A stretch of DNA of 64,000 bases from positions 3,341,001 through 3,405,000 of the forward strand of contig NZ_LT608328.1 of assembly GCF_900095795.1 (NCBI RefSeq), written 5' to 3'. The position numbers were made by a program, and so were the translations under genes. Positions within the stretch are counted from its first letter, which is position 1. Every line of letters starts with the position of its first letter. Positions 46,839 to 58,514 of the stretch are shown in pieces. Under the pieces are notes generated by a model. That model saw nothing but the letters and a program-made list of their open reading frames with translations. It searched no databases and had not been told where the DNA came from. Origin of the DNA: Petrimonas mucosa (GTDB lineage: Bacteria > Bacteroidota > Bacteroidia > Bacteroidales > Dysgonomonadaceae).

Positions 46839-46869
46839 TTTGCCATTCCGATTTTTTGCTTTTTCTTTG
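46839..46869 (+). promoter_or_regulatory. promoter of the branched-chain amino acid operon
   Basis: TTTG at 46839-46842, exactly 19 bases, then TTTCTTTG at 46862-46869, one base from TAnnTTTG. Transcription would start near 46875, about 28 bases before the leader peptide. Confidence 0.7.
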
Positions 46870-46902
46870 CACTCAATTACAAGAAAAAACTTTTTCATTT
46901 CA

Positions 46903-46971
46903 ATGATGAGTCAACATTCTATCGCTATTCTAGTCATTTCCATTCTACTTCTGGAGCATTTCGGAGGGTGA
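46903..46971 (+). CDS. leader peptide of the ilv/leu operon (attenuator)
   Basis: This 22-codon ORF (ATG 46903, stop TGA 46969-46971) encodes a peptide whose residues 6-17 are SIAILVISILLL: four Ile, four Leu and one Val in eleven successive codons (46921-46953). No long protein is encoded here. Immediately downstream lies a terminator hairpin, and the bases over the stop codon can pair with that hairpin. This is the arrangement of the ilvGMEDA, ilvBN and leu leader peptides of enteric bacteria, where ribosome stalling on hungry Ile/Leu/Val codons permits readthrough into the operon. I infer the same role here; translation of the ORF is not proven. Confidence 0.85.
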   Translation: MMSQHSIAILVISILLLEHFGG

Positions 46972-47044
46972 GACCGGTATATCGATATTGAATAGCAAAT
47001 AACTTGATAAAGAAACCTTTCTCACCGCGTGGGAAAGGTTTCTT
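46967..47044 (+). promoter_or_regulatory. antiterminator/terminator switch of the ilv/leu leader
   Basis: GGTGAGA at 46967-46973, overlapping the leader stop, is perfectly complementary to TCTCACC at 47020-47026. The latter includes the end of the 5' arm and the upper stem of the terminator. If the ribosome stalls upstream, this pairing is free to form and blocks the terminator; if it reaches the stop codon, it covers 46967-46973 and the terminator forms. Confidence 0.7.
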
Positions 47045-47047
47045 CTT
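47010..47047 (+). terminator. attenuator terminator before leuA
   Basis: AAGAAACCTTTC at 47010-47021 is a perfect 12-base complement of GAAAGGTTTCTT at 47033-47044, extended by CAC/GTG at 47023-47025/47029-47031, with T-rich sequence to 47047. It lies 36 bases before leuA, where a terminator makes sense only as a regulated one. Confidence 0.82.
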
Positions 47048-47082
47048 ATAATGGAACAGATCAAACCAAGTAGAAAATAGAT

Positions 47083-48570
47083 ATGGAACGAGTTTATGTT
47101 TTTGATACGACGTTGCGCGACGGGGAGCAGGTTCCCGGCTGTCAACTGAACACCATCGAGAAGATTCAGGTGGCCAAGGCACTCGAACTGCTGGGTGTGG
47201 ATGTGATCGAAGCCGGTTTCCCGGTCTCCAGTCCGGGCGACTTCAACTCGGTGGTGGAGATCTCCAAGGCGGTCACCTGGCCCGTTATCTGCGCCCTCAC
47301 CCGTGCAGTTGAAAAGGATATCGAGGTGGCAGCCGAGTCGTTGAAATATGCCAAACGGAAACGGATCCACACCGGGATCGGCACATCCGATATCCATATC
47401 CGGCACAAATTCAACTCCAACCGCGAAGAGATCATCGAACGGGCAGTGAAGGCGGTGAAGCATGCCCGCCGGTTTGTCGACGACGTGGAGTTCTACGCCG
47501 AGGATGCCGGCCGCACCGACAACGAATATCTCGCCCGTGTGGTGCAGGCGGTAGTGGATGCCGGTGCCACCGTGGTCAACATCCCCGACACCACCGGCTA
47601 CTGCTTTCCCCACGTTTATGGTGCAAAGATCAAGTACCTCATCGACCATGTTGACATGAAGAAGGCCATCCTCTCCACGCACTGCCATCAGGATCTGGGC
47701 ATGGCTACCGCCAACACCCTCGCCGGGGTGCTCAACGGCGCGCGACAGGTGGAGGTGACCATCAACGGAATCGGCGAGCGGGCCGGAAACACCTCGCTCG
47801 AGGAGGTGGTGATGGCACTGAAGAGCCACAAGGACCTCGGGTTCGATACCAATATCAACACCACCAAGATCTACTCCACCAGCCGGCTGGTCTCCACGCT
47901 GATGAACATGCCGGTACAGCCCAACAAGGCGATCGTGGGCAGGAACGCTTTTGCCCACTCCTCGGGCATCCACCAGGACGGAGTACTGAAAAATGTGCAG
48001 ACCTACGAGATCATCGACCCGAAAGATGTGGGAATCGACGAGAACTCCATCGTGCTGACGGCACGGAGTGGCCGCGCCGCACTGAAGAACCGCCTCAACC
48101 TGCTGGGCGTCGATATCGACAACGGCGAGCTGGATGAAGTGTACCAGAAGTTCCTCGCACTGGCCGACAAGAAGAAGGATATCAAGGATGACGACATCCT
48201 CTCGCTGGTAGGCAAGGAGTCGAAACTGCACCGCATCCAGATCGACTACCTGCAGGTCACCTGCGGAATCGGTCTGCGTCACGTAGCCAGTATCGGACTC
48301 AACATCGCCGGCGAGCACTTCGAGGCATCGGCCACCGGAAACGGTCCCGTCGACGCCGCTATCAAGGCGGTGAAGAAGATCATCAGCCGCGAAATGGTGA
48401 TCCAGGAGTTCCTGATCCAGGCCATCAACCGCGGAAGCGACGATGTGGGCAAGGTCCACATGCAGGTGGAGCACAACGGACTGCTCTACTACGGCTTCTC
48501 GGCCAATACCGATATCGTCTCCGCTTCGGTGGAGGCATTTATCGATGCGGTTAACAAGTTTGTGGAATAA
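47083..48570 (+). CDS. leuA: 2-isopropylmalate synthase
   Basis: The 495-residue enzyme condenses 2-oxoisovalerate with acetyl-CoA, the committed step of leucine synthesis. The DRE-TIM catalytic domain starts [17 protein letters not shown] (metal Asp and catalytic Arg), contains [16 protein letters not shown] with the H-x-H-x-D-like metal ligands and [16 protein letters not shown]. The C-terminal regulatory domain for leucine feedback (about residues 390-495) ends [16 protein letters not shown]. It is the first structural gene after the attenuator and is followed by leuC after 25 bp. Confidence 0.95.
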
Positions 48571-48595: not shown

Positions 48596-49984
48596 ATGAA
48601 GACGCTTTTTGACAAGATCTGGGACGCACACGTGGTTACCACAGTAAAGGAGGGTCCCTCGCAACTCTATATCGACCGCCACCTCTGCCATGAAGTAACC
48701 AGTCCCCAGGCCTTTGCGGGACTTCGGGCAAGGGGATTGAAGGTATTCCGTCCGGAGCAGACGCTGCTTACGGCCGACCACAACATCCCCACCATGGAGC
48801 AGGAGCGCCCCATCCGGGACGAGGTCTCCCGTTACCAGGTCGACACCCTCGCCAGGAACGCCCGGGAGTTCGGGCTCACCTACTACGGCCTGCGCCACTC
48901 CAAGAACGGGATCGTTCACGTGATCGGACCGGAGAATGGCTTTACACAACCGGGGATGACCATCGTCTGTGGCGACAGCCACACCTCCACCCACGGGGCG
49001 TTCGGCGCCATCGCCTTCGGCATCGGCACCAGCGAAGTGGAGATGGTACTCTCCTCGCAATGCATCCTGCAGACGAGGCCCAAAACCATGCGGATCAACT
49101 TCGAGGGAAAGCTCCGAGAGGGCGTAAGTGCCAAGGATATGGCCCTCTACATGATCTGGCAGCTCACCACGGGCGGAGCCACCGGCTACTTCGTGGAGTA
49201 TGCCGGCGAGGCGGTCCGCAACCTCAACATGGAGCAGCGGATGACCCTCTGCAACCTGAGCATCGAGATGGGTGCCCGGGGGGGACTGATCGCACCCGAC
49301 GAGACCACCTTCGCCTACCTCAAGGGGCGCGAGTTCGCTCCCAAGGGAGAACGGTGGGAGGAGGCGCTCGCCTACTGGAAAACGTTGAAGAGCGACGAAG
49401 GGGCGGTTTTCGACAAGGAGGTCACCTTCGACGCCTCGCAGATCAAGCCGATGATCACCTACGGCACCAACCCCGGCATGGGGATGCCGATCGACGGTAC
49501 CATTCCCCAGATCGACGAGATTGACGAGACAGGCAAGATCTCGTTCGAGAAGTCGCTCAACTACATGGGCTTCAAGCCGGGACAGAAACTGGAGGGGCAT
49601 CCGGTCGACTACGTCTTCCTGGGCAGCTGCACCAACGGCCGCATCGAGGATTTCCGCACCTTCGCCAACTACGTGAAAGGGAAGAGGAGGGCCGACAACA
49701 TCACCGCATGGCTGGTACCCGGCAGCTGGCAGGTCCGCAGGCAGATCGAGGCCGAGGGGCTCGACCGGATCCTGGAGGAGGCCGGTTTCGAGCTGCGACA
49801 GCCGGGATGCTCCGCCTGTCTGGCGATGAACGACGACAAGGTACCGGCAGGGAAGTATGCCGTCTCCACCTCCAACCGTAACTTCGAAGGGCGTCAGGGT
49901 CCCGGTGCACGCACCATCCTGGCCAGTCCGCTGGTAGCAGCCGCCGCGGCCGTGTCGGGCAGAATCACTACCCCTGAAATCTAA
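48596..49984 (+). CDS. leuC: 3-isopropylmalate dehydratase large subunit
   Basis: The 462-residue aconitase-family subunit isomerises 2- to 3-isopropylmalate together with LeuD. It carries the 4Fe-4S cysteines in [13 protein letters not shown] and in [13 protein letters not shown], and the substrate loops [24 protein letters not shown]. The length is typical for the bacterial LeuC type. It is followed by leuD after 21 bp. Confidence 0.96.
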
Positions 49985-50005: not shown

Positions 50006-50602
50006 ATGGAAAAGTTCAATACAATTACATCCACATATGTCCCCCTTCCGATAGAGAACGTGGACACCGACCAGATCATCCCCGCCCGCTTCCTGAAGGC
50101 GACCACCCGCGAGGGGTTCGGCGACAACCTGTTTGCCGACTGGCGCTATGAGAAATCGGGCGAGCCGAAAGCCGACTTCGTCCTCAACAACCCCACCTAC
50201 GGCGGTTCGGTCCTGGTGGCGGGGAAAAACTTCGGCAGCGGCTCCAGCCGCGAGCATGCCGCCTGGGCCATTGCCGGTTACGGCTTCAAGGTGGTGGTAT
50301 CGAGCTTCTTTGCCGATATCTTCCGCAACAACGCCCTCAACAACGGAATCCTCCCGGTGGTGGTGAGCGAGCAGTTCCTCGGCAGCCTCTTCGCATCGGT
50401 CCAGCGCAACCCCAAGGCCACCGTCACGGTCGACCTCGAAGCGCAGTTCATCCGCAACAACGAGACCGGCGAGCAGGAGTCGTTCGAGATCAATCCCTAC
50501 AAGAAGGAGTGTCTGCTGAAAGGACTCGACGATATCGACTATCTCCTCTCCAACCGCGACAAGATCGAGGCCTACGAAAAGAGCCGGCCGTTTGTCTACT
50601 AA
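50006..50602 (+). CDS. leuD: 3-isopropylmalate dehydratase small subunit
   Basis: The 198-residue swivel-domain subunit completes the isopropylmalate isomerase. Recognisable elements are [20 protein letters not shown] and the [37 protein letters not shown] substrate-binding block. It lies between leuC and the citramalate synthase homologue. The same isomerase can also act on citramalate. Confidence 0.96.
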
Positions 50603-50630: not shown

Positions 50631-52187
50631 ATGATAAAGAGGAAAATCGAGATAATGGACACCACGCTGCGCGACGGCGAGCAGACCTCGGGCGTCTCAT
50701 TCGCGGTGGAAGAGAAGGTAAGTATTGTCCGCCTGCTCATCGAAGAGCTAAATGTCGACCGGGTGGAGATCGCCTCGGCACGGGTCTCGGAAGGCGAGTT
50801 CAAGTCGGTCCAGAAGATCGCGCAGTGGGCCACGGCCCACGGACATATCAACAAGATCGAGATCCTGGGCTTTGTCGACGGCAACGCCTCGCTCGACTGG
50901 ATCACCACGGCCGGCTGCCGGGTGGTCAACCTCCTCTGCAAGGGTTCGGAGAACCACTGCACCCACCAGCTCCGGAAGACGGCCAAGGAGCACCTTGCCG
51001 ATATCAAGGCGGTGATCGCCGAAGCGAAAAGGCGCGGCATGGAGGTAAATATCTACCTAGAGGACTGGTCCAATGGCATGCGCGACTCACAATCCTATGT
51101 CTTCGAGATGATGGACGAGCTGCAGCACCAGCCGATCACCCGGTACATGCTACCCGACACGCTCGGCATCCTCAACCCCTGGGAGACCCGCACCTTCTGC
51201 CAGCAGATGATCAGCCGGTATCCCCACCTCCATTTCGACTTCCATGCGCATAACGACTACGACCTGGCGGTGGCCAACGTCTTCGAGGCGGTGAAGGCGG
51301 GAGTGAAGGGGGTTCACGTCACTGTCAACGGACTGGGAGAACGGGCCGGGAACGCACCCGTCACCAGCATCGTCGCCCTGATCCACGACCAGCTGAAGCT
51401 CAGCACCAATGTGGATGAGAGCAAGCTCTACAGCGTCAGCAAGATCGTGGAGAGCTACTCCGGCGTACGGATCCCCGCCAACAAGCCGATTATCGGCGAC
51501 AACGTCTTCACCCAGGTGGCCGGCGTCCATGCCGACGGCGACAAGAAAAAGAACCTCTACCACAACGACCTGATACCGGAACGGTTCGGCCGCTTACGGG
51601 AGTATGCCCTCGGCAAGAACTCCGGCAAGGCCAACATCCTGAAGAACCTCGAGGCACTCGGTATCGAGGTGGACGACGAGGCGGCCAAGAAGGTGACCGC
51701 CCGCATCATCGAGCTGGGCGACAAGAAGGAGCTGGTCACCCCCGACGAGCTTCCCTATATCGTCTCCGATATCCTGAAGAATGGCGTCGACAACCAGGAG
51801 ATACAGATACTGAACTACTCGCTGAACCTCACCGACGGCATGCGCCCCACGGCCACCGTCAAGGTCTCCATCCGGGGAGAGGTCTACCAGCAGTCGGCCG
51901 CCGGCGACGGCCAGTACCACGCCTTCTCCAAGGCGATGTACAAGATCTACAAGAGCCTCAACAAACCCACCCCCGAACTGCTCGACTACGTGGTGGTGAT
52001 CCCGCCCGGCGGCAAGACCAACGCCTACGTGCAGACCATCATTACCTGGAAGTTCGACGGCAAGATATTCAAGACCAGGGGACTCGACATGGACCAGACC
52101 GCTGCCGCCATCAAGGCGACAATAAAGATGTTAAACATGATAGAAAAAGGAAATATACCGGTAATCCGCCACATGGAGTTGCCGTAA
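50631..52187 (+). CDS. cimA: citramalate synthase / 2-isopropylmalate synthase homologue
   Basis: The 518-residue enzyme is a second DRE-TIM synthase with its own C-terminal regulatory domain. Its catalytic start is [22 protein letters not shown], then NIYLEDWSNGMRDS, HFDFHAHNDYDLAVANV and VNGLGERAGNAPV. This sequence type, with the Y-L-E-D-W segment, is closer to (R)-citramalate synthases than to LeuA, and it shares the operon with a clear leuA. It probably condenses pyruvate with acetyl-CoA to give isoleucine without threonine. I start at ATG 50631, since the upstream frame starts only with TTG at 50592. Homocitrate or a second isopropylmalate activity cannot be excluded. Confidence 0.75.
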   Translation: MIKRKIEIMDTTLRDGEQTSGVSFAVEEKVSIVRLLIEELNVDRVEIASARVSEGEFKSVQKIAQWATAHGHINKIEILGFVDGNASLDWITTAGCRVVNLLCKGSENHCTHQLRKTAKEHLADIKAVIAEAKRRGMEVNIYLEDWSNGMRDSQSYVFEMMDELQHQPITRYMLPDTLGILNPWETRTFCQQMISRYPHLHFDFHAHNDYDLAVANVFEAVKAGVKGVHVTVNGLGERAGNAPVTSIVALIHDQLKLSTNVDESKLYSVSKIVESYSGVRIPANKPIIGDNVFTQVAGVHADGDKKKNLYHNDLIPERFGRLREYALGKNSGKANILKNLEALGIEVDDEAAKKVTARIIELGDKKELVTPDELPYIVSDILKNGVDNQEIQILNYSLNLTDGMRPTATVKVSIRGEVYQQSAAGDGQYHAFSKAMYKIYKSLNKPTPELLDYVVVIPPGGKTNAYVQTIITWKFDGKIFKTRGLDMDQTAAAIKATIKMLNMIEKGNIPVIRHMELP

Positions 52188-52201: not shown

Positions 52202-53278
52202 ATGAATTTGAAAATAGCTGTATTGGCCGGCGACGGCATCGGTCCCGAGATCATGGACCAGGCATTGAAGGTGACGCGCGCCGTCTGTAAACGATTCAAC
52301 CATGAGGCAACCTTTACGGAAGCCATCACCGGCGCCTGTGCCATCGATGCCGTGGGCGACCCCTATCCTCCCGAAACGCATCAAGTCTGCATGGCGGCCG
52401 ATGCGGTGCTGTTCGGTGCCATCGGACACCCCAAGTACGACAACAACCCCAACGCCCCGATCCGTCCCGAACAGGGACTGCTCCGGATGCGGAAGCAGCT
52501 GGGACTCTACGGCAATATCCGTCCCGTGATGACCTTCCCCTCGCTGATCCACAAGTCCCCCCTCAGGGCCGACCTGGTGGAGGGGGCAGATTTCGTCTGC
52601 ATCCGGGAACTGACAGGCGGCATGTACTTCGGCCGGCCGCAGGGACGGAGCGAAGATGGCAACACCGCCTACGACACCTGCGTCTACACCCGCGAGGAGA
52701 TCGAACGGATCCTGCACCTGGCCTACCGGTTCGCCAGACAGCGTCGCAAGAAGCTGACCGTGGTGGACAAGGCCAACGTGATCGCCACCTCCCGCCTCTG
52801 GCGCCAGATCGCCCAGGAGATGGCACCGCAATATCCCGACATCGAGACCGACTACCTCTTCGTGGACAACGCCGCCATGCGGATCATCCAGTGGCCCAGG
52901 AGCTTCGACGTGCTGGTCACCGAGAACCTCTTCGGCGATATCCTTACCGATGAAGCATCGGTCATCACCGGCTCGCTGGGGATGCTCCCCTCCGCCTCGA
53001 TCGGCATCCACACCTCGCTCTTCGAGCCGATCCACGGCTCCTACCCGCAGGCCGCAGGGAAGAATATCGCCAACCCGGTCGCCATGATCCTCTCCGCCGC
53101 ACTGATGTTCGAATATGCGTTCAACCTGCATGAAGAGGGAGCCGCCATCCGCCAGGCGGTCAACGCCAGCCTTGAAGCCGGCATCGTCACCGAAGAGATT
53201 GCCGAGGGGGGTAAAGCCTACACCACCAGCGAAGTGGGGGACTGGGTATCTGAGTATATTGATAGTAAAAAAAAATAA
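52202..53278 (+). CDS. leuB: 3-isopropylmalate dehydrogenase
   Basis: The 358-residue enzyme oxidises 3-isopropylmalate, or methylmalate in the citramalate route, with NAD+. It shows [52 protein letters not shown] and the metal-binding [25 protein letters not shown], then the NAD site [18 protein letters not shown]. Start ATG 52202 is 14 bp after the citramalate synthase homologue. Confidence 0.96.
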
Positions 53279-53294
53279 TTTATAGAAAATAATC

Positions 53295-55139
53295 ATGAAG
53301 CGAAACGAGAAGAGAACCCTTCGGAGCAACAGCTCTACTCAGGGGCGATTGATGGCCGGGGCACGTGCCCTCTGGCGGGCCAACGGCATGAAGGAGGAGC
53401 AGATGGGCAAACCGATCATCGCCGTGGTGAACTCCTTCACCCAGTTTGTGCCGGGGCATGCGCACCTGCACGAGATCGGCCAGCTGGTAAAGGCGGAGAT
53501 CGAGCAGCTGGGCTGCTTCGCCGCCGAGTTCAACACCATCGCCGTGGACGACGGCATCGCCATGGGGCACGACGGGATGCTCTACTCGCTGCCGTCGCGC
53601 GACATGATTGCCGACTCCATCGAGTACATGATCAATGCCCACAAGGTGGATGCGATGGTCTGCATCAGCAACTGCGACAAGATCACCCCGGGCATGCTGA
53701 TGGCCGCCATGCGGCTGAACATCCCCGCCATCTTCGTTTCGGGGGGACCGATGGAGGCAGGGAAGATCGGCGACGAGTCGATCGACCTGATCGACGCGAT
53801 GATCGAATCGGCCGACGACAATGTCTCCGACCAGCGCATCTCGCAGCTCGAAAAGCTGGCCTGCCCCACCTGCGGCTCCTGCTCCGGCATGTTCACCGCC
53901 AACTCGATGAACTGCCTCAACGAAGCGATCGGACTGGCCCTGCCCGGCAACGGAACCATCGTCGCCACCCATGCCAACCGGATCAACCTCTTCCGCAAGG
54001 CGGCGAAACAGATTGTGGAGAACGCCCACCGCTACTACTTCGAGGGCGACGAGAGCGTGCTGCCGAGAAGCATAGCCACCCGGGCAGCCTTCCTCAATGC
54101 CATGTCGCTCGACATCGCCATGGGCGGATCCACCAACACCATCCTCCATTTGCTGGCCATTGCCCATGAAGCGGAGGTCGATTTCACGATGGACGACATC
54201 GATGCACTCTCTCGCAGAGTTCCCTGTGTCTGCAAGGTGGCGCCCAATACCAAGAAATACCATATCCAGGATGTGAACCGGGCCGGCGGCATCCTGGGCA
54301 TCTTGAACGAGCTAGCCAAGGGGGGACTGATCGACACCTCGGTACACCGTGCCGACGGGTTGACGCTCGGCGAAACGATCGCCCGTTACGACATTACCGT
54401 CTCCTCGCCCGATCCGGAAGCTGTGGCGATCTACAGCTCGGCTCCCGGCAACCGGTTCAACCTGGTGATGGGATCGCAGGATGCCCGGTACAAAACGCTC
54501 GACAGCGACCGGACCGGCGGCTGTATCCGCAGCATCGACAACGCCTATACCCGCGACGGCGGACTGGCCATCCTGAAGGGGAACATCGCCCGGAACGGCT
54601 GTGTGGTGAAGACCGCCGGAGTGGACGAGAAGATCTGGAGCTTCTCGGGCAGGGCCAGGGTCTACCACTCGCAGGATGACGCCTGCGCCGGCATCCTTAA
54701 CGGCGAGGTGGTTGCCGGCGACGTGGTGGTCATCGTCTACGAGGGACCGAAAGGGGGACCGGGCATGCAGGAGATGCTCTACCCCACCTCCTATATCAAG
54801 GCCCGGCACCTGGGCAAGGAGTGTGCCCTGATCACCGACGGCCGTTTCTCCGGAGGCACCTCCGGCCTCTCCATCGGACACATCTCGCCCGAGGCGGCTG
54901 CCGGCGGCGAGATAGCGCTGGTGAGGGACGGCGACATCATCGAGATCGATATTCCCAACCGCTCCATCCAGGTACGGCTCACCGACGGAGAGCTGGCAGA
55001 GCGGCGGAGAGAGGAAGAGACCAAAGGAAAGGATGCCTTCAAACCGGTGCGGGAACGGGAGATTTCCAACGCACTGAAGTTGTACGCCCACTTCGTCAGT
55101 TCGGCCGACAAGGGCGGTGTAAGAATTATCAATTCATAA
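53295..55139 (+). CDS. ilvD: dihydroxy-acid dehydratase
   Basis: The 614-residue iron-sulfur enzyme makes the 2-oxo acids of valine and isoleucine from their dihydroxy precursors. Fe-S ligands are visible in [16 protein letters not shown] and [19 protein letters not shown], and the Mg and catalytic regions in [19 protein letters not shown] and [26 protein letters not shown]. The length is normal. It is 16 bp after leuB. Confidence 0.97.
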
Positions 55140-55151
55140 CGACCATACATT

Positions 55152-56873
55152 ATGAGTAATCAGACAAAGGAGAACATTTCGGGGAGCGAGGCGCTGATCC
55201 GCTCCCTGCTTGCCGAAGGCGTGGATACCATGTTCGGATATCCCGGCGGTGCCATCATGCCCGTCTTCGACGCCCTCTACGATTATAAGAACGACATCCG
55301 CCATATCCTGGTCCGTCACGAACAGGGGGCGGTCCATGCCGCACAGGGTTACGCCCGCGTCTCGCGGAAGACCGGCGTGGCACTGGTCACCTCCGGTCCC
55401 GGCGCCACCAACGCCATCACCGGAATCACCGACGCCATGATGGACAGCACCCCGCTGGTGGTGATCTCCGGCCAGGTGGTCTCCGGCCTGCTGGGCACCG
55501 ACGCCTTCCAGGAGGCCGACGTGATCGGCATCACCCAACCCATCACCAAGTGGGCCTACCAGGTGAGACGTGCCGAAGAGATCCCCTGGGCGGTCTCCCG
55601 TGCCTTCTACATCGCCCGGAGCGGCCGTCCCGGACCGGTTGTCCTCGACATCACCAAAGATGCGCAGATCAACAAGTTCGACTACAGCTACAGCAAGACC
55701 ACCTTCCTGAGGAGCTACCTCCCCTTCCCCGAACCGGAGATGGAGAACATCAGGGCAGCGGCGGAGCTGATCAACCAGGCAGAACGCCCCTTCGCGCTGG
55801 TAGGACAGGGTGTGATTCTCGGCAATGCGGAACAGGAGCTGCTCGCCTTCCTCGAGAAGGGGGGAATTCCCTTCGGGTCCACCATCCTCGGGCTCTCCGC
55901 CATCCCCACCGACCATCCGCTCAATACCGGCATGCTGGGGATGCACGGCAACATCGCCCCCAACATGAACACCAACGCCTGCGACGTGCTGATCGCCATC
56001 GGCATGCGGTTCGACGACCGTGTCACCGGCAACCTCAAAACCTACGCCCGGCAGGCCAAGATCATCCACTTCGACATCGACCTGGCGGAGATGGACAAGA
56101 ACGTGAAGACCACCGTCAAGGTGCTGGGCGATGCCAAGGCTACCCTCCCGCTCGTCACGGAGCTGATCGGGAAGCGCGACCATTCGGCCTGGCTCGAGAC
56201 ATTCAACCAATACAGGAAGAGAGAGTTCGACTGTGTCATCAAGGCAGAGCTCTATCCCGAGAACGGCGGTGAGCTGAAGATGGGCGAGGTGATCAACAAA
56301 GTGTCGGAAGCTACAGGCCACAAGGCGATCTGCGTCACCGACGTGGGTCAGCACCAGATGATGGCCACCCGCTACTTCAAGTCGACCCTCCCCCGCAGCA
56401 TGGTCACTTCGGGGGGACTGGGCACCATGGGTTTCGGCCTCCCTGCAGGGATCGGAGCGAAGTATGGGGCGCCCGACCGTACCGTCTGCATCTTCGTGGG
56501 CGACGGCGGCTTCCAGATGTCGATCCAGGAGCTGGGCACCATCCTGGAGTACCAGGTCGACGTGAAGATCATCCTCCTGAACAACAACTACCTGGGGATG
56601 GTGCGGCAGTGGCAGGAGCTCTTCTTCGACGAGCGCTACTCCGAGACCCACCTGAAGAATCCCGACTTTGTAAAGGTAGCCGAAGCCTACGGTATCCGGG
56701 GCAGGAAGGTGACCGACCGCAGTGAGCTTGACGGCGCCATCAGGGAGATGCTGGAGCACCGTGGACCCTACCTGCTCGAAGCGGTGGTGGAGACCAAGGG
56801 GATGGTATATCCGATGGTACCCGCCGGCGGCAGCGTTACCGACATACTGATTGGAAACGGAAACAAAATTTAA
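55152..56873 (+). CDS. ilvB: acetolactate synthase catalytic (large) subunit
   Basis: The 573-residue thiamine diphosphate enzyme makes acetolactate or acetohydroxybutyrate. It has the N-terminal FGYPGGAIMPVFDALYD, catalytic Glu in VRHEQGAVHAAQGYAR, FAD region GMLGMHGNIAPN and the ThDP motif GDGGFQMSIQELGTILEYQVDVKIILLNNN. Tight spacing (12 bp) to ilvD and to ilvN indicates a coupled operon. Confidence 0.96.
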   Translation: MSNQTKENISGSEALIRSLLAEGVDTMFGYPGGAIMPVFDALYDYKNDIRHILVRHEQGAVHAAQGYARVSRKTGVALVTSGPGATNAITGITDAMMDSTPLVVISGQVVSGLLGTDAFQEADVIGITQPITKWAYQVRRAEEIPWAVSRAFYIARSGRPGPVVLDITKDAQINKFDYSYSKTTFLRSYLPFPEPEMENIRAAAELINQAERPFALVGQGVILGNAEQELLAFLEKGGIPFGSTILGLSAIPTDHPLNTGMLGMHGNIAPNMNTNACDVLIAIGMRFDDRVTGNLKTYARQAKIIHFDIDLAEMDKNVKTTVKVLGDAKATLPLVTELIGKRDHSAWLETFNQYRKREFDCVIKAELYPENGGELKMGEVINKVSEATGHKAICVTDVGQHQMMATRYFKSTLPRSMVTSGGLGTMGFGLPAGIGAKYGAPDRTVCIFVGDGGFQMSIQELGTILEYQVDVKIILLNNNYLGMVRQWQELFFDERYSETHLKNPDFVKVAEAYGIRGRKVTDRSELDGAIREMLEHRGPYLLEAVVETKGMVYPMVPAGGSVTDILIGNGNKI

Positions 56874-56885
56874 ACTGAACGCACT

Positions 56886-57449
56886 ATGGAAGGAAAAACG
56901 TTATATACCGTCACCATCTTTTCGGAAAATACGGTAGGTGTGCTCAACCAGATCACCACCATCTTCACCCGCCGGCAGCTCAATATCGAGACCCTCTCGG
57001 TCTCCCCCTCGGCACTGGCAGGGATACACAAGTTCACCATCACCGTCTTTGCCGAGTCGGACGAGGTGATGAAGAAGTTGGTCCGGCAGATCGACAAGCG
57101 GATCGACGTGTTGAAGGCCTACTTCAATGTCGACGACGAGCTGATCCACCAGGAGCTGGCCCTCTACAAGCTGTCCACCGACAAGGTACTGGAGCACGGG
57201 TCGATCGAATACCTGATCCGCAAGTACAACATCCGGGTGCTGGAGGTGACCAACGACTGCGTGGTCTTCCTCAAGGCAGGCCACTATGCCGAGACGCAGG
57301 GGCTGTTCGACGAGCTGGCCGAGAAGATCGGCGTACTCCAGTTCATCCGCTCCGGCCGCATCGCCATCACCAAGTCGCGGGTGGAACGTCTCAGCGACAT
57401 GCTGGCAGAGCGGGAGGAGAAACGGAAACAAGCATTAACAAACAACTAA
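56886..57449 (+). CDS. ilvN: acetolactate synthase regulatory (small) subunit
   Basis: The 187-residue protein has an N-terminal ACT domain (YTVTIFSENTVGVLNQITTIFTRRQLNIETLSVSP) that binds the feedback inhibitor valine, and a C-terminal ALS_ss domain from about residue 80. It is longer than E. coli IlvN and of the IlvH/IlvN type usual in Bacteroidota. It lies between ilvB and ilvC. Confidence 0.94.
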   Translation: MEGKTLYTVTIFSENTVGVLNQITTIFTRRQLNIETLSVSPSALAGIHKFTITVFAESDEVMKKLVRQIDKRIDVLKAYFNVDDELIHQELALYKLSTDKVLEHGSIEYLIRKYNIRVLEVTNDCVVFLKAGHYAETQGLFDELAEKIGVLQFIRSGRIAITKSRVERLSDMLAEREEKRKQALTNN

Positions 57450-57467: not shown

Positions 57468-58514
57468 ATGGCAAAAATGAATTTTGGCGGGGTAGAAGAG
57501 AATGTAGTCACCCGCGACGAATTTCCATTGAGCAAGGCTCTGGAGACATTGAAGAACGAAACCATCGCCGTCATCGGATACGGCGTGCAGGGACCTGGAC
57601 AGTCGCTCAACCTGCGCGACAACGGCTTCAACGTGATTGTCGGCCAGCGGAAGGAGAGCAAATCGTGGGACAAGGCGGTAGCCGACGGCTGGGTTCCCGG
57701 CGAGACCCTGTTCGAGATCGAAGAGGCGTGCCAGCGCGGTACCATCATCCAGTACCTCCTCTCGGATGCCGCCCAGATCGCACTATGGCCCACGGTGAAG
57801 AGACACCTCACCCCAGGCAAGGCACTCTACTTCTCCCACGGCTTCGGCATCACCTACAAGGAGCGTACCGGCATCATCCCCCCGGCCGATGTCGACGTGA
57901 TCCTGGTCGCCCCCAAGGGATCGGGAACCAGCCTGCGGAAGATGTTCCTCGAGGGAAGGGGACTCAACTCCTCCTATGCCATCTTCCAGGATGCCACCGG
58001 CAAGGCGTACGACCGGGTGGTCGCCCTCGGTATCGGTGTCGGCTCGGGCTACCTGTTCGAGACCGATTTCAAGCGGGAGGTCTACTCCGACTTGACCGGC
58101 GAGCGGGGAACATTGATGGGTGCCATCCAGGGACTCCTGCTGGCCCAGTACGAGGTGCTGCGCGAGAATGGGCACACCCCGTCGGAAGCGTTCAACGAGA
58201 CGGTGGAAGAGTTGACCCAGTCGCTAATGCCGCTCTTTGCCGAGAAGGGGATGGACTGGATGTACGCCAACTGCTCCACCACGGCACAACGTGGTGCGCT
58301 CGACTGGATGGGTCCGTTCCACGACGCCACCAAGCCGGTGTTCGAGAAGCTCTACAAGGAGGTGGCCAACGGCAACGAAGCCCAACGCTCCATCGACAGC
58401 AACTCGCAGCCCGACTACCGCGAGAAGCTGGAGGCTGAACTGACGGCCCTCCGCGAAAGCGAGATGTGGCAGACCGGCGCCGTGGTGAGGAAGTTGCGCC
58501 CCGAAAACAACTGA
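57468..58514 (+). CDS. ilvC: ketol-acid reductoisomerase
   Basis: The 348-residue class I KARI reduces and rearranges acetolactate. It contains the nucleotide-binding glycine motif VIGYGVQGPGQSLNLRDNGF followed by GQRKESKSWDKAVADGW, and the metal ligands in SDLTGERGTLMGAIQGLLLAQYE and ETVEELTQSLMPL. The loop G-Q-R-K-E-S resembles those of NADPH-specific enzymes. It closes the operon 19 bp before a terminator. Confidence 0.96.
   Translation: MAKMNFGGVEENVVTRDEFPLSKALETLKNETIAVIGYGVQGPGQSLNLRDNGFNVIVGQRKESKSWDKAVADGWVPGETLFEIEEACQRGTIIQYLLSDAAQIALWPTVKRHLTPGKALYFSHGFGITYKERTGIIPPADVDVILVAPKGSGTSLRKMFLEGRGLNSSYAIFQDATGKAYDRVVALGIGVGSGYLFETDFKREVYSDLTGERGTLMGAIQGLLLAQYEVLRENGHTPSEAFNETVEELTQSLMPLFAEKGMDWMYANCSTTAQRGALDWMGPFHDATKPVFEKLYKEVANGNEAQRSIDSNSQPDYREKLEAELTALRESEMWQTGAVVRKLRPENN

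Follow-up and report, generated by a model that had tools for sequence, protein, structure and literature searches.

Introduction

The leaders of enteric bacteria follow the 1:2 / 2:3 / 3:4 hairpin scheme. The leu, ilvGMEDA and ilvBN operons of these bacteria are listed as attenuated in the available part of PMC1183508. The same part reports that the Salmonella leu leader has rare CUA control codons (Carter et al. 1986, as cited there) and that CUG in place of CUA reduced the sensitivity. The Rfam family Leu_leader has the accession RF00512 in an excerpt of PMC3766115. According to an excerpt of PMC2965389, from 2010, the Firmicutes case of that paper was the first such attenuator to be demonstrated in a group other than Proteobacteria and Actinobacteria. 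Within Bacteroidota, Flavobacterium psychrophilum was reported to show strong signs of attenuation by short peptides encoded upstream of amino acid biosynthesis operons (excerpt of PMC9723704), and leader-like sORFs were found in long 5' UTRs of B. thetaiotaomicron (excerpt of PMC7366714). Unlike the present analysis, these excerpts described neither a branched-chain leader nor an analysis of RNA pairings.

We searched the literature on attenuation and leader peptides in Bacteroides and Bacteroidetes, on coupling and on rare leucine codons, and among the matches listed there was no description of the leu-ilv leader of Petrimonas mucosa. The comparative genomics study of attenuators by Vitreschak et al. 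2004 reportedly mentions attenuators in Bacteroidetes/Chlorobi in its abstract, and Lopatovskaya et al. 2010 is said to be a study of the same kind. Attenuators of this type have probably been predicted already for the phylum. The Bacteroid-trp RNA motif RF01692, which we take to be a trp leader, differs from the present leader in its operon. It was described as a Bacteroidetes candidate RNA in the available part of PMC2864571.

Here, we analysed the leader of a leu-ilv operon in a 64 kb window, namely the whole stretch of 64,000 nucleotides of P. mucosa DNA. The leader resembled the enteric leu and ilv leaders in its ORF of cognate codons and its mutually exclusive hairpins, and it shared rare CUA control codons with the Salmonella leu leader. 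Unlike the enteric leaders, it matched no Rfam family at gathering score, and a single leader stood before a fused leu-cimA-ilv operon. The results pointed with high confidence to a classical ribosome-mediated transcription attenuator of the leu-ilv operon. The comparison with relatives strongly supported a mechanism of textbook kind, to which the P. mucosa leader would add a case.

Results

The leu-ilv operon and its leader ORF

The features of the locus, all on the + strand, are as follows.

46839..46869 (+), promoter-like site, TTTG at 46839-46842, 19 bases, then TTTCTTTG at 46862-46869 (sequence)
46903..46971 (+), leader ORF, 22 codons plus TGA at 46969-46971, peptide MMSQHSIAILVISILLLEHFGG (sequence; frame open in relatives)
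46918..46935 (+), region 1, inside the control codons, partner of region 2 (swap test, 37 loci)
46921..46953 (+), control codons, 9 of 11 being Ile (4), Leu (4) or Val (1) (codons 7-17)
46967..46989 (+), region 2, GGTGAGACCGGT..., overlapping the leader stop, partner of region 1 or region 3 (pairing comparison)
47010..47025 (+), terminator 5' arm (fold and family covariation)
47029..47044 (+), region 4, terminator 3' arm (sequence, fold)
47083..48570 (+), leuA, 2-isopropylmalate synthase (NCBIfam TIGR00973)
48596..49984 (+), leuC (NCBIfam TIGR00170)
50006..50602 (+), leuD (NCBIfam TIGR00171)
50634..52187 (+), cimA-like gene, probable citramalate synthase, isoleucine precursor (best match NCBIfam NF042433)
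52202..53278 (+), leuB (NCBIfam TIGR00169)
53295..55139 (+), ilvD (NCBIfam TIGR00110)
55152..56873 (+), ilvB (NCBIfam TIGR00118)
56886..57449 (+), ilvN (NCBIfam TIGR00119)
57468..58514 (+), ilvC (NCBIfam TIGR00465)

In the case of the cimA-like gene, the NF042433 score was 649.5 bits, below the cut-off of 950, and the next family reached 331 bits, about half. The Bacteroidota promoter consensus is of the -33/-7 type. T-rich stretches with a CTTTG end, resembling the promoter-like site with changes, were seen by eye before the leader in relatives. A preliminary description of this DNA had proposed a promoter TTTG-N19-TTTCTTTG and a 22-codon ORF with nine Ile/Leu/Val codons among eleven. The promoter letters were present at 46839-46869, and the ORF and its codon run lay exactly at 46903-46971 and 46921-46953.

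Codons 7-17 of the leader were Ile Ala Ile Leu Val Ile Ser Ile Leu Leu Leu. No other ATG ORF of 12-40 aa on either strand of the window had 9 or more I/L/V residues in 11, and the mean number in 20 first-order Markov copies was 0.1. When the intergenic region was copied in the same manner, 8 of 5000 Markov copies held such an ORF. The control codons CTA (twice), ATT (three times) and CTT were rare in the operon's own genes, and this rarity was matched by 2 of 20000 simulated codon choices. The locus showed a short ORF with a run of end-product codons, marked by the count of 9 of 11, by codon rarity and by the match with the pathway.

Terminator and pairing regions

An intrinsic terminator was found between the leader and leuA. 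Its stem had 16 pairs including one G-U (47010-47025 with 47029-47044), its loop was CGC, and it ended 38 bases before leuA. The terminator had been described as a 12-bp perfect stem 36 bases before leuA; its existence was upheld, and its size and spacing were corrected. The segment 47011-47045, with 15 of these pairs, folded at -20.2 kcal/mol. The U-rich run at 47039-47049 (TTTCTTCTTAT) was imperfect, lay partly within the stem and was weaker than that of many relatives. Region 3 consisted of ACC at 47015-47017 and TCTCACC at 47020-47026, i.e. parts of the 5' arm plus the next base, and the antiterminator (2:3) was exclusive with the terminator.

The 7-nt complementarity between the leader stop region and the terminator, also proposed before, was exact: GGTGAGA at 46967-46973 is the complement of TCTCACC at 47020-47026. 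A complementary run of at least 7 between the stop region and the terminator arm occurred in 64 of 5000 Markov copies. Since about 1% of the copies had one, the match by itself was weak, and therefore a comparison with relatives was needed. In the 1:2 helix, which overlaps the control codons, 13 of the 17 drawn pairs can form in P. mucosa. Rfam gave no family at gathering score anywhere in the 64 kb window. Leu_leader (RF00512) did not reach gathering in the window and was absent from the six lax matches at the site, which belonged to unrelated families, were far below gathering and looked like chance.

Proposed mechanism and ribosome geometry

RNA polymerase would start near 46870, just after the promoter-like site, and a ribosome would translate the leader behind it. 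If charged Leu-, Ile- or Val-tRNA were short, the ribosome would stall within 46921-46953 and mask region 1, leaving region 2 (46967-46989) free. Region 2 could then pair with the terminator 5' arm (2:3) before the 3' arm is made, no terminator would form, and the nine genes would be transcribed. If all three amino acids were plentiful, the ribosome at the stop codon (46969-46971) would cover region 2, and the terminator (3:4) would form before leuA. With no ribosome, region 1 would pair with region 2 (1:2), which would also lead to termination. In this model, translation of the leader, a stall governed by charged tRNA and control at the step of termination are inferred.

Folding was performed with the 3' edge of the ribosome assumed to lie 12 nt beyond the first base of the A-site codon. 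With this footprint, a ribosome on each of the nine control codons allowed all 7 core 2:3 pairs to form in the RNA to 47029, and a ribosome at the stop codon allowed none of the 7. This was in agreement with the geometry put forward earlier, in which a stalled ribosome frees 46967-46973 and one at the stop codon covers it. The complete RNA favoured the terminator, with -26.8 to 47050 versus -16.9 for the antiterminator to 47029 with the ribosome at Leu17. Since the terminator, once complete, is the more stable of the two structures, the switch must be kinetic.

Occurrence in relatives

Within the same family, 55 of the 101 genomes and 10 of the 15 genera had a match to the region in a DNA search; genome G038 matched at the terminator only. 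The leader frame was open in all 34 distinct same-family sequences, of which 33 started with ATG and one (L028) with GTG as judged by eye. The family alignment had 33 rows from 43 same-family loci, with nine repeats and the GTG-start L028 left out. An earlier alignment had used 13 of 14 loci, leaving out L003, which had the same sequence as L002. The Val codon GTC was kept in 32 of the 33 aligned rows. By eye, every indel inside the core had a length divisible by three (L013, L041), and the frame changed only after the core (L012, L014). L041 carried an extra in-frame CTT codon within the Leu run.

At the level of the order, a LeuA protein search (E 1e-150 or better) gave 60 of 148 genomes, and 59 of the 60 leuA upstream regions were parsed (L094 had no parsed upstream region). 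An automatic rule, which asked for ATG, at least 7 of 11 I/L/V and a hairpin with a T-run at -11 kcal/mol or lower, was matched by 31 of 59 regions in the sense direction and 0 of 59 in the antisense direction; a looser rule gave 38 and 5. The arrangement was accepted in 37 of the 59 regions. For this set, the automatic matches L070, L077, L078 and L086 were removed as unconvincing, the window's own locus (L048), L063 and L087 were added by hand, and the leader and hairpin of L049 were replaced by hand. These choices took pairing into account, and the 2:3 test below was rerun on the automatic set. Among the 22 regions that were not accepted, leuA sat after an apparent ilvC end in seven (by eye). 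The distance from the leader end to leuA was 77 to 198 nt in 36 of the 37 accepted loci and 356 in L075. In L052-L057, the leader ORF continued through region 2, several ending in GSExCA or similar, and the stop came further on; a ribosome at the stop would therefore be placed differently.

The predicted attenuator device is present in many Bacteroidales and is not special to the P. mucosa operon. Leaders were seen in Bacteroides gallinarum and B. rodentium and in MAGs that bear the names Phocaeicola plebeius, Tannerella and Prevotella. Leaders before ilv genes were seen in Flavobacterium, Pedobacter, Fulvivirga, Belliella and Hydrotalea records by ORF, hairpin and duplex energy only, and this energy was weak in some ilv-first records, being about -8 in both Flavobacterium. 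Attenuation before the ilv genes of these genera may be taken as a lead, and by looser evidence the putative device also occurs in other Bacteroidia.

Covariation of the pairings

Region 2 and the terminator arm were read side by side, and joint changes were observed. GTGAG occurred with CTCAC, and GTAAG with CTTAC (L068). Region 2 GAGAATGG was accompanied by the terminator arm CCATTCTC in L087, L091 and L096, GAGAGAAAGG by CCTTTCTCTC in L054, TTAGAGTGAG by CTCACTCTAA in L049, and GGGGG by CCCCC in L100. In the comparison that the preliminary description had called for, the I/L/V-rich ORF and the terminator were conserved among relatives, and the pairing of stop codon and terminator showed compensating changes.

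In a swap test, the region of each locus was paired with its own partner and with that of every other locus, using 20000 permutations. For 2:3 in the 37 loci, the mean pairing energy was -16.30 with the own partner versus -13.01 with swapped partners (sd 0.42), and 0 of 20000 permutations were as good. The own partner beat the swap mean in 33 of the 37 loci, and in 4 it did not. For 2:3, the 38 loci chosen by the automatic procedure alone gave z -6.8 (0 of 20000). The 2:3 search window was widened for this set; the narrower window used when the 37 loci were accepted had cut into the pairing of L052 and L054. For 1:2, region 1 in the leader codons was tested against the spacer between stop codon and hairpin in the accepted set only. 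The own mean was -13.20 versus -9.68 (sd 0.44), with 0 of 20000 as good and an order-wide z of -8.0; the own partner was better in 28 of 37 loci and not in 9. Reversed-partner controls showed no effect (z -0.4 for 2:3 and -1.4 for 1:2), and the 1:3 control, which was not predicted to pair, gave no signal (z 0.1). Opposite-strand duplex controls gave z -6.1 and -5.9, weaker than the sense strand; they score because Watson-Crick pairing survives complementation.

Within the family of 33 sequences, the terminator covaried, and 2:3 was nearly invariant, 91.5% paired, with 22 of 500 shuffles as high. The alignment-based count for 1:2 in these 33 sequences showed no excess, with pairs in 77.5% of cells versus 77.9% in shuffles. 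This null count was likely due to register shifts of the outer pairs, which were noted by eye, and the swap test was preferred for 1:2 because such shifts probably spoil the alignment-based count. The swap test within the family gave z -4.2 for 1:2 (own better in 21 of 33) and z -2.4 for 2:3 (own better in 17 of 33). Region 1 of the family was GATATTCTAGTC or a variant, and region 2 was GACTGGCATATC or a variant. A constraint on the 1/2 pairing would explain the near-fixed nucleotides of those leader codons. The predicted antiterminator (2:3) and anti-antiterminator (1:2) both covary across the order. The proposed 1:2 pairing is a further element, absent from the earlier model.

Leader codons and operon content

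For 26 of the 37 loci, enough leuA sequence was available to compare codon use. The Val share of I+L+V codons was 36% in leuA versus 4% in the leaders. The CTA share of Leu codons was 2.5% versus 40%, an approximately 16-fold enrichment, and the ATT share of Ile codons was 38% versus 78%. The core I/L/V residues of the 37 order leaders were 153 Leu, 135 Ile and 1 Val, the lone Val being that of P. mucosa itself. When whole leaders were counted, cores plus the rest, 26 of 37 had no Val at all; Val occurs outside the cores. Ser, Gly, Asn or Thr made up 73 of the 118 other core residues.

Operons were read downstream in 21 cases. Nine had ilvDBNC after leuB, eleven were leu-only, and L202 was cut by the contig end. 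Val was found in the leader core of 9 of 9 fused leu-ilv operons and 0 of 11 leu-only operons (1 of 11 without the hand choice at L194, where the script's ORF contained Val and the previously accepted ORF was used instead). The GTG-start leader of L204 was read by hand; the script had found none. All nine fused operons belong to one family and may represent one evolutionary event. An Ile/Leu leader fits the products of the leu-only operons because 9 of the 11 carry a cimA-like gene. L210 and L211 had no cimA-like gene in the stretch seen, and their leaders still contained Ile.

A named set of 80 loci was also used; leaders at most 330 nt from a leu or ilv gene were obtained from 28 of them, 32 rows in total. 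Three rows were dropped: L117 (weak hairpin and pairing), L178 (Olsenella) and one L135 row that lay within the leu operon, before leuB. L157 was scored as leu-only though its next gene was labelled cimA-like, and a leader-like ORF of L182, several hundred bases before ilvD, was excluded from the count. The order and named sets overlap (L100/L136, L107/L138). Val was present in the core of 10 of 11 ilv-first leaders (24 of 96 I/L/V residues) versus 1 of 17 leu-only leaders (1 of 136), with Fisher p 9e-6 when rows are treated as independent despite their relatedness. The whole-locus scan behind this set gave 59 sense versus 25 other-strand matches in 1.34 Mb, which indicates the false-positive background.

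These comparisons supported the reading that leader codons track operon content. The P. mucosa leader, which has a single Val codon, is predicted to sense chiefly Ile and Leu. It had been suggested that one leader sets nine genes for all three amino acids; the nine genes were confirmed, and the Val part comes down to a single codon, with Ile and Leu dominating. Equal setting by all three amino acids was rejected in view of the one Val codon here and the near absence of Val in leu-only relatives.

Two clusters with several leaders were observed. L110 had a Val-rich leader before ilvD (3282) and an Ile/Leu leader before leuA (9683) in one cluster and in the same direction. In L135:3568-3860 (Ancylomarina), two tandem leader ORFs with terminators, both Ile/Val-rich, stood before ilvD, and a third stood before leuA.

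Discussion

A membrane segment is expected to be richer in Val, Phe, Ala, Trp and Met than the leader cores were. This bears on the possibility that the leader peptide is in fact a small hydrophobic membrane protein with its own function and that the terminator behind its gene is an ordinary one. The peptide core is indeed hydrophobic and its sequence nearly fixed within the family, but Val accounted for only 1 of 289 core I/L/V residues in the 37 leaders, and just 16 of the remaining 118 residues of the cores were Phe, Ala or Trp, with no Met. Rare synonymous codons were preferred, residue choice went with the operon pathway, and the RNA pairings covaried, which left a membrane protein very improbable. 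A switch without a ribosome (a T-box, a riboswitch or a protein-bound leader), in which the ORF is incidental, was considered even less probable. It is generally known that a terminator/antiterminator pair alone would suit any transcriptional riboswitch. However, the only Rfam hits at the site were weak and chance-like, the ORF codons matched the pathway, and region 1 sat inside the control codons. A T-box in particular was rejected: Rfam gave no match for it in the window, and the T-box distribution in the available part of PMC3766115 did not include Bacteroidota.

Leader translation might also leave termination unaffected and act after transcription, through translational coupling or by protecting the mRNA. 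Translational control is on record for the Bacteroides element CTnDOT, where it reportedly works through a leader peptide. In the present locus, however, a terminator lies between the leader and leuA, and its 5' arm is the covarying partner. The leader-leuA gap of 77 to 198 nt in 36 of 37 loci (356 in L075) is far for reinitiation, and we consider post-transcriptional action extremely improbable.

The attenuator reading provides a well-supported model of how Bacteroidales may sense branched-chain amino acids. Bacteroidota rarely use Shine-Dalgarno signals, and initiation is mostly without them. If the attenuator works as drawn, transcription-translation coupling must be tight in this phylum. 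The leader would then be a natural reporter of whether Bacteroidota ribosomes trail RNA polymerase closely enough to control termination. In addition, the rule that leader codons mirror operon content uses sequence only and fits pathway assignments such as that of the cimA-like gene. A wider proposal is that Bacteroidota have phylum-wide branched-chain leader attenuators that are so far undescribed, with codons adapted to what the operon contains (Ile/Leu but no Val before leu-cimA, Val where ilv leads or is fused) and convergent use of rare CUA. We regard this as conceivable and lean somewhat against it.

Putative leaders of other amino acid operons in the same genome

Rfam was run on 12 loci, and no match at gathering was obtained apart from rRNA. 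The trp upstream region of P. mucosa scored below the gathering score of RF01692. In the stretch read at the prephenate dehydratase gene, no leader was visible. By eye, a His-rich leader ORF, MKVNKLHHHHFHTCCQAR (L188:2284-2228, - strand), stood before hisG, and a hairpin with a long T-run lay between the two. Upstream of a cluster including trpE, a Trp leader containing Trp-Trp, MYTSLANRYWWRHLLPDRS (L189:3365-3306, - strand), and a terminator after it were likewise seen by eye. In the case of Thr, a Thr-rich leader ORF, MIFSYSTYTTPFTMTMTPWGVI, was seen by eye before a homoserine dehydrogenase gene (L193, approximately 1574-1642). As read by eye, these His, Trp and Thr ORFs are putative leaders.
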